Assembly: GCA_017627765.1 (NCBI GenBank)
Contig: JAGAGD010000047.1
Location: 1-49,686 of the forward strand
Direction of reading: 5' to 3'
Length of the DNA: 49,686 nt
From: Prevotella sp.
Lineage (GTDB): Bacteria; Bacteroidota; Bacteroidia; Bacteroidales; Bacteroidaceae
A program made the position numbers and the translations under genes. The notes under the pieces were generated by a model, which did no database searches, was not told the DNA's origin, and was given only the letters and a program-made list of their open reading frames with translations. This document shows positions 1 through 49,686 of this stretch, one piece after another (position 1 is the stretch's first letter; each line of letters begins with the position of its first letter).

Positions 1-105
1 AAAATTTTAAGTTATGTGCGAGGTTAGTTAATCAATTTTTTACCCAACTCGGCTCTGAAAATTGCAGGTTTTTCTCTCGGCAAAGGGTAGCTTTCTGAAA
101 CAGGT
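1..105 (-). repeat. R1 element, partial copy cut by the left window edge
   Basis: On the minus strand this reads like the first part of the R1 copies near 22.2 kb and 33.7 kb: it shares the GAGTTGGGTAAAAAATTG stretch and the preceding CTTGCAATTTTC-like stretch with small changes. The hairpin array that should follow lies outside the window to the left. Confidence 0.8.
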
Positions 106-109
106 TTCA

Positions 110-240
110 GATTGTTATAAGTTATGAGTTATAAGTTATAAGAACGGGAACTTTAACGTTAACTGTCAACTAAAACAACTATGAACTATGCATTACTAAA
201 GACTATGCATTATGCACTATGAACTATGCACTGATATCAC
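110..240. repeat. Low-complexity AGTTATAAG / ACTATGCA repeats
   Basis: About 30 bases of imperfect AGTTAT(A/G) repeats are followed by a short R3 tract (143-163: AAC at every sixth base) and then several copies of ACTATGCA and ACTATGAA. No open frame is present. The ATGCACTATG words also occur in the 39.7-kb inverted repeat, so this is probably a decayed dispersed element. Confidence 0.5.
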
Positions 241-22145: not shown

Positions 22146-22256
22146 ATGGAAACTTACATTCTGAAAGCACTCTTCCGCTTCCTGCCTTTGCCGAGCGAAA
22201 AACTTGCAATTTTCGGAGCGCAGTTGGGTAAAAAATTGATTAACAAACCCCTCTGA
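22146..22256 (+). other. 36-codon frame at the start of R1 copy A
   Basis: ATG to TGA, with the peptide containing LPLPSEKLAIFGAQLGKKLIN. The same frame can be followed in the other R1 copies (LPRGKLAIF-stop-AELGKKLIN near 33.7 kb; LPREKPAIFRAELGKKLIN at the left edge), once interrupted by a stop. It may be a leftover of a gene carried by the element or a micro-protein; not a firm gene. Confidence 0.3.
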
Positions 22257-22398
22257 TAACTTAAAAATTTACGACCAAGCAAAAAGAAGCTGCAAAATAT
22301 GCGAGTATTTGGCAACTTCTCGCTGTTTTTAGTAAATTACTCAATATCAAGACATTATAGCTTTCATCGCAAAACTCATAACTGTTAAAAAAGTCAAA

Positions 22399-22493
22399 GG
22401 GCATCTTTCGCAGTGCGAAAGGGCACCTTTGGCACTGCAATATGCCACATATCGCACTGCGATATGCCACGTTTGACATCGCGAAAGGACACC
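22399..22493 (+). repeat. R1 hairpin array, 22-bp period (copy A)
   Basis: Four 15-base units start at 22406, 22428, 22450 and 22472, exactly 22 bp apart: TTTCGCAGTGCGAAA, TTTGGCACTGCAATA, TATCGCACTGCGATA, TTTGACATCGCGAAA. Units 1 and 3 are perfect 6-bp stems with 3-base loops; unit 4 has a damaged left arm. The 7-base spacers (GGGCATC, GGGCACC, TGCCACA, TGCCACG, GGACACC) are related to one another. Confidence 0.95.
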
Positions 22494-22634
22494 TTTCACT
22501 TTTTCGTTCCTTATGTTCGTTTACATTGTTTAAGCCGATTGATTAACAATTAAACGCTTTTTAGCATTTCGCATCGTGCCAAGTGGGAAAACGGCTCCAA
22601 ATCTTTTTCTAGAATGAAAGTTTTGGTTGACAAA

Positions 22635-22673
22635 AAAATCGGCTGTTTTTCGTCAAAAAAACAAGCCGATTTT
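22635..22673 (-). terminator. Terminator inside R1 copy A
   Basis: AAAATCGGCT (22635-22644) pairs with AGCCGATTTT (22664-22673); on the minus strand TTTG follows. It is placed to stop transcription from the 22756-25914 gene. The corresponding part of the 33.7-kb copy does not form this stem. Confidence 0.55.
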
Positions 22674-22755
22674 GAAAGTTACAATTTGTAAGTAAGGTGA
22701 ACATTAATCATTATTCTTTCACCCTTAATCCAGAATAGCACATAGTTGCTACGCT

Positions 22756-33471: not shown

Positions 33472-33601
33472 GTTCCCGTTATCGGTATCGTTGAACAAAT
33501 CTGTGTGCGATTAAATACTCAAATAAAGAAATTGCTCCACTAAGTTAGGGGAGCTGTCACGAAGTGACTGAGGAGTATGTTGCCACCATGCAGCTGCATG
33601 G
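33472..33601 (-). repeat. R3 fragment plus R2 element copy 3 (reversed)
   Basis: A short GTT-CCC-GTT-ATC run (33472-33495) is followed by the linker TTGAACAAATCTGTGTG and the reversed R2 block: GTCAC-GAA-GTGAC and CTCC...GGGGAG (the last arm is mutated: CTCCACTAAGTTAGGGGAG). Where the other copies have a CGATG/CATCG hairpin this one has the 16-bp perfect palindrome CCATGCAGCTGCATGG (33586-33601). Confidence 0.8.
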
Positions 33602-33628
33602 TTCAGAGTTAAAGAAGAAAGAATAAGA

Positions 33629-33672
33629 ATTAAAGTTAAGGTTCCCGTTATCGTTCCCGTTAACGTTAAAGT
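33629..33672. repeat. R3 hexamer tract
   Basis: GTT at 33635 and every six bases to 33665, separated by AAG, CCC, ATC, CCC, AAC and AAA. It joins R2 copy 3 to R1 copy B. Confidence 0.85.
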
Positions 33673-33684
33673 CCTTTCAATTTG

Positions 33685-34200
33685 AAAGCAGTTTTCGGTT
33701 TCTTGTCCTTGCCAAGAGGAAAACTTGCAATTTTCTGAGCCGAGTTGGGTAAAAAATTGATTAACTAAACCTGCTGATAACTTAAAAATTTACGACTTAG
33801 AAAAATGAAGTTGCAAAATATGCGAGTATTTGGCGGTTTCTTGTCGTTTTTAGTAAATCGTTCAATATCAAGACCTTATACGTTTCGTCGTAAAACACAT
33901 AAGTGTTAAAAAAGTCAAAGGGCATCTTTCGCAGTGTGAAAGGGCACCTTTGGCACTGCAATATGCCACATATCGCAGTGCGATATGCCACGTTTCGCAT
34001 CGCGAAAGGACACCTTTCACTTTTTCCTTATGTTCGTTTACATAGTTTAAGCCGATTGATTAACAATTAAACACATTTTTGCATTCAGCCTCGTGCCAAG
34101 CGGAAAATCTTTCTCTAGAATTAAAATTCCGTTTGTCAAGATTTTTTACTTTTTTCGTCAATATTTTGGGCTGATTTTGGAAGTTACAGTTTGTAAGTTG
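33685..34200 (+). repeat. R1 element, complete copy B
   Basis: Same order of blocks as copy A at 22160-22693, with about one difference in eight bases and short indels. The AAATCGGC terminator stem of copy A is absent. Lies in the 1.2-kb gap between the divergent parC and 34508 genes, which holds no gene. Confidence 0.85.
33920..34014 (+). repeat. R1 hairpin array, 22-bp period (copy B)
   Basis: Units at 33927, 33949, 33971 and 33993: TTTCGCAGTGTGAAA, TTTGGCACTGCAATA, TATCGCAGTGCGATA, TTTCGCATCGCGAAA. Units 3 and 4 are perfect 6-bp stems; unit 1 is mispaired here while perfect in copy A; unit 2 is imperfect in the same way in every copy. Confidence 0.95.
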
Positions 34201-49190: not shown

Positions 49191-49238
49191 GAGAACGGGA
49201 ACTTTAACCTTAACGAGAACGGGAACGAGAACGTTAAC
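49191..49238. repeat. R3 hexamer tract
   Basis: Eight AAC triplets in exact register (49194 to 49236) with spacers GGG, TTT, CTT, GAG, GGG, GAG and GTT. It uses most of the R3 vocabulary in one stretch and lies just upstream of the corrinoid operon promoter. Confidence 0.9.
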
Positions 49239-49251
49239 ATACGCCCCCTTG

Positions 49252-49313
49252 CCCCCTCTAACTTAGAGGGGGAATTGAAGATTGAGAACGAGAACGGGAA
49301 ATTTAACGTTAAA
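49252..49313. repeat. Palindrome plus R3 fragment
   Basis: CCCCCTCTAA-C-TTAGAGGGGG (49252-49272) is a near-perfect palindrome related to the last hairpin of R2. It is followed by an R3 fragment (49284-49313: GAG-AAC-GAG-AAC-GGG-AAA-TTT-AAC-GTT-AA). Confidence 0.75.
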
Positions 49314-49353: not shown

Positions 49354-49431
49354 CCACGATGCCGTTGCATCGTGTAAACACACTCCTCAGTCACTTCGTG
49401 ACAGCTCCCCTAAACTTAGGAGAGCAATTAC
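49354..49431 (+). repeat. R2 palindromic element, copy 4
   Basis: CACGATG-CCGTTG-CATCGTG, then GTCAC-TTC-GTGAC, then CTCCCCTAA...TTAGGAGAG (one arm mutated). Directly joined to the R1 copy at the right edge. Confidence 0.85.
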
Positions 49432-49686
49432 TGCTTACAAACTGTAACTTTCAAAATCACTCCGATTTTTTGACGAAAAAAGTAAAAAATCTTGACAAAC
49501 GGAATTTTAATTCTAGAGAAGGATTTTCCGATTGGCACGAGGCGAAATGCTAAAAAGCGTTTAATTGTTAATCAATCGGCTTAAACAATGTAAACGAACA
49601 TAAGGAATGAAAAAGTGAAAGGTGTCCTTTCGCGATGCGAAACGTGGCATATCGCAGTGCGATATGTGGCATATTGCAGTGCCAAA
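49432..49686 (-). repeat. R1 element, partial copy cut by the right window edge
   Basis: The reverse of copies A and B: CTTACAAACTGTAACTTTC, ...CTAGAGAAGG, GATTAATTGTT-type blocks, then the hairpin array. Array units at 49628 (TTTCGCGATGCGAAA), 49650 (TATCGCAGTGCGATA) and 49672 (TATTGCAGTGCCAAA) keep the 22-bp spacing; the window ends on the last base of the third unit. Confidence 0.9.

Follow-up and report, generated by a model that had tools for sequence, protein, structure and literature searches.

A 22-bp lattice of palindromic units at the core of a dispersed non-coding element in Prevotella

Introduction

The window analysed here, 49,686 nucleotides of Prevotella sp. DNA, is one whole contig of a 2.48 Mb assembly in 120 contigs (source genome G000, 88% complete). 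It carries an array of short palindromes that follow one another at a constant distance of 22 bp. What is such an array, and what keeps its step constant? Tandem repeats of constant size (20–23 or 52 nt) and variable sequence, with several families per species, have been described in many bacteria, and a polymerising nucleoid protein or small RNAs were proposed for them (Subirana and Messeguer 2021, PMC8161180). The main text of that study mentions neither Prevotella nor any name beginning with Bacteroid-.

Results and Discussion

Geometry of the array

At 22399-22493, four units of 15 bp are set between five spacers of 7 bp, all in exact 22-bp register (Table 1). The preliminary description had placed the starts of the 15-base units 22 bp apart, which holds throughout 22406-22486, and its recurrence of the layout at 33920-34014 and, reversed, at 49621-49686 was confirmed, the latter copy being cut by the contig end. 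It had also let every unit form a 6-bp stem; in copy 1 this is correct for units 1 and 3 and fails for units 2 and 4, in which four of the six positions pair. Unit 4 of copy 2 (33993-34007) is a perfect palindrome, unlike its counterpart in copy 1. Part of the imperfect look of unit 2 comes from its outer bases, which match the adjoining spacers, and the spacers are themselves partly palindromic (AAAGG-GCA-CCTTT, ATATG-CCA-CATAT). A repeat finder applied to the window array reported five copies with spacings of 22, 22, 22 and 22, including the weak fifth unit at 22384.

Table 1. Coordinates of the array, its carrier element and the period-22 families of genome G108
Feature	Position	Strand	Remarks
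Array, copy 1	22399..22493	.	four 15-bp units, five 7-bp spacers, period 22
Spacer starts	22399, 22421, 22443, 22465, 22487		7 nt each
Unit 1	22406..22420	.	perfect 6-3-6 dyad
Unit 2	22428..22442	.	imperfect dyad, pairs 4/6
Unit 3	22450..22464	.	perfect 6-3-6 dyad
Unit 4	22472..22486	.	imperfect in copy 1, pairs 4/6
Weak fifth unit, same register, upstream of array	22384..22398	.	64% to unit 1 over 25 nt
Array, copy 2	33920..34014	.	layout as in copy 1
Array, part of copy 3	49621-49686	reversed	cut by contig end
Element copy 1	22153..22692	+	540 bp; sharp edges in 41-copy alignment
Left inverted end	22153..22167	+	15-bp palindrome CTTACATTCTGAAAG
Right inverted end	22678..22692	+	15-bp palindrome GTTACAATTTGTAAG
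Conserved core (lead-in, array, hairpin stretch)	22380..22556	+	fewest non-consensus letters; 22494-22520 less conserved
Internal repeat of left-end motif, beside array	22521..22535	+	80% to 22154-22168
Element copy 2	33674..34197	+	524 bp
Element copy 3	49434..49686	-	cut by contig end
Element copy 4	1..116	-	left arm only, no array, cut by contig start; match 1-86, end motif ~102-116 by eye
G108 period-22 families			PINSR; TTACGTGTAA type; ATATGACGTCATAT type (125724, 168406, 208771); CGATAGTACTTTTT type (75603); TTTCAAGCTGTCTGAACGCTAC (313977)
TTACGTGTAA/TTACACGTAA repeat	G108:C1 21609, 46020, 118581, 130497, 151244, 165161, 287097, 334683, 343212, 357950		in L190, L191, L194-L197, L203, L205, L206

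The array is the core of a dispersed element

A dispersed non-coding element of about 528 bp carries the array as its conserved core. Searching the source genome with a 29-bp piece of the array (up to three mismatches, blind to indels) gave 91 occurrences, which represent 90 copies with one counted twice; the reversed pattern gave none. The assembly breaks at this array-bearing repeat, and 28 of the 91 occurrences lie within 230 bp of a contig start.

We aligned 41 copies, namely those of the window and the best-scoring of 193 first-look candidates. The edges of the element are sharp, with the consensus dropping to 41–54% outside. Many copies carry a 15-bp palindrome at both edges, CTTTCAATCTGAAAG on the left and the inverted form on the right (CTTTCAGATTGAAAG, GTTACAGTTTGTAAG). 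Both ends are recognisable in 23 of the 41 copies; others are truncated or decayed at the ends. Eleven of the 23 two-ended copies are 528 bp long (range 517–540); roughly 530 bp had first been estimated for the element. Copy 1 ends at 22153 and 22692. The longest ORF that overlaps the element has 72 amino acids. The fourth element suspected at the left window edge proved to be a left arm (1 to ~116) without an array.

Three smaller features of the element and its surroundings were observed. ATTGATTAACAA occurs twice in the element (22235-22246 and 22538-22549) and, together with the left-end motif that recurs just past the array, resembles a smaller element nested in a larger one. Another dispersed repeat, which contains two small hairpins (..CATCGTGTAAACACACTCCTCAGTCACTTCGTGACAGCTCCCCTAACTTAGGGGAGC..), is often found near the element, in the window at ~270-355, 480-547 and 49355-49430 and, reversed, at ~33540-33605. 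Additionally, hexamer runs (GTTCCC, GTTAAC, GTTAAA) adjoin the left end of many copies, in the window at ~33640-33672 and 49195-49310, and the copy at locus L014 breaks into a repeat of this kind, as comparison with L038 shows.

The array keeps its register and is better conserved than the arms

The array is complete in 40 of the 41 aligned copies, the 41st being cut by a contig end, and none of the 40 contains an indel. Across 31 rows the 120 bp of array are free of indels, whereas the 281 bp of flank have 16 (p = 0.005); 11 of the 16 are concentrated in one T-rich stretch, and the aligned copies, as best matches, may miss copies with altered spacing. The constancy of the spacing, which had been set as a test of an ordered array, thus held in the aligned copies, and other species and unrelated sequences show the same 22-bp step (see below).

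Non-consensus letters per 1000 amount to 21 in the lead-in, 36.5 in the array, 100 in the short stretch after it, 38.6 in the hairpin stretch and 106–193 in the arms. Conservation is lowest at the inverted ends, with 237 and 181. The best-kept part of the window's element is a 22-bp dyad lattice. Such conservation could stem from selection on each copy, a constraint of mobility, gene conversion or a mutational difference. Changes private to single copies, counted in 29 well-aligned rows, are rarer in the array than in the flanks (6.5 versus 12.3 per 1000, p = 0.01), which weakly favours selection on each copy.

We favour the reading, at a probability of roughly 0.4, that the array is a double-stranded DNA lattice read by a putative oligomerising dimeric protein and spread by a non-autonomous mobile element. 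The lattice would offer two-fold symmetric sites every 22 bp and work as double-stranded DNA. A dimer of a host protein, or of one linked to the element, would occupy each 22-bp unit, in contact with the neighbouring dimers since 22 bp spans roughly two turns of supercoiled DNA. Two turns correspond to 22 bp only for a helical repeat close to 11 bp, as in supercoiled DNA. The step size would be kept, the sequence of the units would be free to drift between species and families, and the carrier would spread an array that is then retained. Protein binding, cooperativity and spread by a transposase are what we infer here.

Apparent mobility of the carrier

The carrier looks mobile, and is MITE-like and non-autonomous: it is short, non-coding and multicopy, with terminal inverted repeats in the 23 two-ended copies. 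One copy, at locus L014, interrupts another dispersed repeat that is intact at L038 1123-1241 (84% over 129 bp), the exact insertion point being blurred by hexamer repeats at the junction. Target-site duplications of the MITE kind were not found: among the 23 copies considered, which leave out the 18 of 41 without two recognisable ends, 20 show none and three show two bases, compared with 18.9 and 3.4 for shuffled pairs.

No cognate transposase with the same ends was found among the families DDE_Tnp_1, PF01797, PF02371 and PF04986. DDE_Tnp_1 was rejected as the mobiliser, as neither of the two genes in the source genome has the element's ends nearby. The 36 exact end sites include no IS-like pair, same-contig pairs being either ~510 bp apart, which is the element itself, or more than 7 kb apart. 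Y1_Tnp (PF01797) is present in 10 of 24 genomes searched and gave no match in G000, G108, G017, G361 or G408; mobilisation of the REP/RAYT type was rejected. IS110-type Transposase_20 gave no match in any of the five genomes, its controls being positive; IS91-type Y2_Tnp also gave no match in five genomes, where the controls were likewise without any match. The plasmid and phage collections held no match to the element, and the sister-genome stretches compared for empty sites shared no gene content.

Two known kinds of repeat invite comparison. Like the REP/BIME palindromes associated with RAYT, the window arrays are short palindromes in intergenic clusters; unlike them, they have an exact 22-bp step, and the array-richest genomes have no Y1 transposase. 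BrickBuilt, a MITE of Porphyromonas gingivalis with 19 copies and 1 to 22.8 units of 23 nt per element (PMC4596501), is similarly dispersed and intergenic, has inverted ends around a short tandem array and is predicted to fold. However, its units follow each other without spacers, and the text consulted reports no symmetry (PMC4596501). The 23-nt unit in variable number that marks BrickBuilt does not apply to the window element, with its 22-bp step and four units.

The preliminary description held that the ordered-array reading would fall if the element proved to be a known transposon, MITE or Rfam family. The inverted ends and mobile look go some way in that direction, as does a described repeat of the same geometry (PINSR, below); no Rfam match at the gathering score was obtained in the window.

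Alternatively, the element could be purely selfish and MITE-like. The array would then hold sites for the element's own transposase, absent or unrecognised, or for an accessory protein, and would serve mobility only, with no host function. Sharp inverted ends, a modal length shared by 11 of 23 copies, scattered intergenic positions and the interrupted repeat are all as expected for such an element, and no host role was found. The missing target duplication fits it poorly, as does the result that the transposase families searched yielded no gene with ends like those of the element; moreover, mobility alone leaves unexplained why the array has fewer private changes than the arms, and arrays occur in other species outside the window's element. 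We regard this explanation as rather unlikely.

PINSR has the same array geometry

PINSR is a 188-bp intergenic repeat of P. intermedia, with 177 and 184 copies in two strains. It also occurs in P. nigrescens, P. falsenii and P. disiens, lies downstream of tnaA and was reported without inverted ends (PMC4755523). An array locus of P. falsenii was matched in at least 46 of 398 genomes of the genus, with two candidates scored per genome. It is 100% identical in G017, and the P. intermedia-like genome G108 matches it over 187–191 bp. In 400 kb of G108 there are 40 copies of this repeat, some partial, with a consensus of 188 bp. A tnaA-like gene of G108 (E 2e-158, short of the curated cut-off for its family) has one copy 221 bp beyond its 3' end; the flanks examined of the tnaA-like genes of G361, G408 and G017 (the last on a cut contig) contain none. 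The P. falsenii-type 188-bp repeat is very probably PINSR, an assignment made by its length, the P. falsenii contigs and the tnaA-like neighbour rather than by the published consensus.

The PINSR-type repeat holds the 15+7 lattice in register (TTTTGCGTTCCAAAA, TTTTGCACGGTAAAA, TTTTGCATCGCAAAA, TTTCGCAATGCCAAA), a feature that the accessible text of the PINSR description does not mention (PMC4755523). By our reading, TGTAAATATTTTTC at one edge and GAATTATCTTTACA at the other agree as inverted repeats at 11 of 14 places, giving imperfect 14-bp ends. The 31 copies that we aligned were chosen near full length, so that the absence of indels among them is not evidence of a fixed register. Spacers 1–3 of these copies occur in linked states (18, 6, 5, 1 and 1 of 31), which may reflect subfamilies or fold-back.

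By sequence, the window element is not PINSR. No match between the two fell below E 0.05 in 503 kb of the source genome containing 41 copies, the best (E 0.08, 36 bp) lying inside the arrays, and of ten source-genome candidates for the P. falsenii locus two were scored and neither matched. Both repeats are dispersed, intergenic, non-coding and of high copy number, with four units in the 15+7, 22-bp geometry; they differ in length (188 versus ~528 bp), in spacers and in ends. The view that the array had no description must therefore be amended, since PINSR is a described repeat of the same geometry. For the 22-bp lattice of Prevotella itself, no account was found in the literature searched, subscription journals being mostly outside it. 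PINSR, thought private to the P. intermedia group, is hereby linked with arrays across the Prevotellaceae.

Relatives by sequence in other Prevotellaceae

Named genomes were searched with a pattern made of a full unit plus a partial one. At least 70 stretches matched; among the matches listed, 67 are from Prevotellaceae, two from one Spirochaetales MAG and one from a Wallbacteria MAG. Carriers among the matches listed include P. histicola, P. pallens, P. falsenii, P. aurantiaca, P. disiens, P. corporis and P. lacticifex, and further Hoylesella, Xylanibacter, Marseilla and uncultured Prevotella. Four or five units are present in 57 of the 71 arrays from the 70 listed stretches, by a count that advances 22 bp at a time and is allowed to pass over a single poor unit, so that the 7-nt spacing there is given by construction. 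The spacers vary between species, and both orientations occur.

The offsets not fixed by the pattern show the same step. Around 76 anchors in the 67 listed Prevotellaceae stretches, the unit (at least 10 of 14 places) recurs at -44 in 25%, at -22 in 39%, at +44 in 50% and at +66 in 28%, and no other offset except 0 and 22 exceeds 5%. Palindromicity peaks also at ±11 and 33, in part because units finish with AAA and their neighbours start with TTT. A strict pattern matched 7 of 398 genus genomes, the source genome included. This count is no measure of absence, as G016 has no strict match yet holds 12 period-22 arrays in 400 kb.

By eye, the arrays of all species had seemed to share a conserved hairpin tail. 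This was rejected: among intergenic period-22 arrays, a regular expression for the tail matched within 150 bp of 1 out of 37 in G108, 0 of 15 in G016, 0 of 11 in the source genome and 1 of 16 in a sample of 20 genomes. The two stretches of the Spirochaetales MAG (L096, L129) contain regular arrays of TTTTGCACTGTGAAA plus CAAAAGG at a 22-bp step, outside the Prevotellaceae.

Gene context and RNA folding

In the source genome the element shows no preferred gene orientation: in 42 rows, with one element counted twice, 8 copies lie in convergent gaps, 7 in divergent, 12 in codirectional and 15 at contig edges. The 68 arrays of other species are divided into 14 convergent, 24 codirectional, 9 divergent, 11 at edges and 10 inside short ORFs, and gaps without an array into 24 convergent, 57 codirectional and 28 divergent. 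In G108 convergent gaps hold 15 of 40 copies compared with 16 of 93 gaps without a copy, divergent gaps hold 4 of 40 compared with 24 of 93, and copies lie nearer to gene 3' ends. Such a distribution, with convergent gaps favoured and divergent ones avoided, would fit a terminator or just insertion at a distance from promoters; closeness to 3' ends is likewise what a terminator would predict. Copies in G108 are not regularly spaced along the chromosome (coefficient of variation 0.81, near random).

If transcribed, the arrays might instead act as a structured RNA that folds as a chain of small hairpins or one long hairpin, to serve as terminators or mRNA stabilisers. Folding predictions agree with this, as all eight strands of four arrays are far more stable than their shuffles (z -3.5 to -8.5), although palindrome arrays of any kind fold on both strands. 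Adjacent complementary spacers form long hairpins with T-runs in several species; the window copy has a single weak terminator-like site, with 0.8 expected. The gap preferences in G108 and the linked spacer states of PINSR-type copies point the same way. On the other hand, orientation is balanced in the source genome and little biased in other species, and termination as the sole function was rejected on that ground even though G108 leans towards it. Hairpins, moreover, do not need an exact 22-bp step. An RNA element is, in our judgement, unlikely.

Period 22 is shared by unrelated sequences

Period 22 is common in Prevotella in arrays of other sequence too. Of 187 tandem repeats in 400 kb of G108, 54 have this period and 25 the next commonest one, and at least five families of unrelated sequence share period 22. 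Of 22 period-22 arrays in G108 that are not PINSR, 19 lie in gaps between ORFs, two inside ORFs and one over an ORF start. With PINSR masked, the same 400 kb contain 18 chains (at 15 places) of at least three dyads at spacing 22, versus 1–6 for each other spacing from 16 to 30.

We extended the count to four unbiased Prevotella samples totalling ~1.52 Mb (400 kb each of G108 and G016, 358 kb of the source genome and 366 kb from 20 genomes). These contain 84 non-overlapping period-22 arrays, compared with 61 for the fifteen other periods between 15 and 30 together, so that 22 is by far the most frequent tandem period of this range. Removal of 21 PINSR-type arrays and 10 of the window's element leaves 53 versus 61, the most frequent other period, 15, having 15. 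Among arrays of at least three copies, with the two main families removed, period 22 has 19 and the others 10. In 248 kb from 20 non-Prevotella Bacteroidales genomes there were 3 period-22 arrays versus 21 others, with none of three copies, and in 50 kb of E. coli none of 10 tandem repeats had period 22. The 358 kb of the source genome outside the element held six such arrays, all of at most 2.5 copies and forming no convincing second family, so that this genome has only one.

Dyad symmetry at p < 0.05 was found in 20 of 84 period-22 arrays and in 3 of 61 others. Without the two main families the counts are 9 of 53 versus 2 of 61 (one-sided p = 0.015, rank p = 0.004), p values that are too small because related array copies are not independent. 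The other 44 of the 53 (p ≥ 0.05) are not clearly dyad-symmetric, which makes the argument from symmetry weaker than the pooled figure; outside the two main families, symmetry is only modestly enriched. A fixed step, a drifting sequence and frequent two-fold symmetry together form the pattern that a dimeric DNA-polymerising protein would impose, as in our preferred reading of a protein-bound lattice.

The constant-size repeats introduced above resemble the Prevotella arrays in their fixed step of ~20–23 nt, in having multiple families of one length per genome and in being mostly non-coding (PMC8161180). Several unrelated non-coding families of one length within one genome, the mark of such repeats, are present in G108 with its five or more. 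What sets the Prevotella arrays apart is a step of 22, symmetry in the main families, about four units per array and the carriage of two families on dispersed elements (PMC8161180). Those unexplained repeats thereby gain a sharply defined, symmetric, high-copy example, with which a putative binding protein could be fished directly. A broader form of the lattice reading would be a Prevotellaceae DNA-reading system with a fixed 22-bp step, in which one protein family or its paralogues polymerise on double-stranded DNA at many small arrays per genome, several of them unrelated in sequence and some spread by PINSR or the window's element, with the step and often the symmetry conserved and not the sequence. 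We put this forward tentatively, as possible though doubtful.

A copying mechanism with a 22-bp ruler, such as slippage or integration in two-turn steps, might build arrays of any sequence with the period as a functionless by-product, as the unrelated sequences that share period 22 in one genome and the many asymmetric arrays would suggest; but we know of no such mechanism, and the fixed unit number, the conservation above the flanks in ~90 dispersed copies and the symmetry excess make it improbable.

Several individual arrays outside the two main families are worth recording. Those at G108:C1 125724, 168406 and 208771 (L195, L197, L199) are near-perfect AAATATGACGTCATATTT palindromes at a 22-bp step. 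A repeat of ~95 bp in G108, unrelated in sequence to PINSR, is built nearly throughout from TTACGTGTAA/TTACACGTAA dyads at a 22-bp spacing (Table 1). Lastly, 22-bp arrays of other sequences occur in other Prevotella (L323 10982-11087, L312 13816-13914, L324 19269-19356, L325 4762-4845), one of which has a TGGAAC-N3-GTTCCA unit in the same 15+7 geometry.
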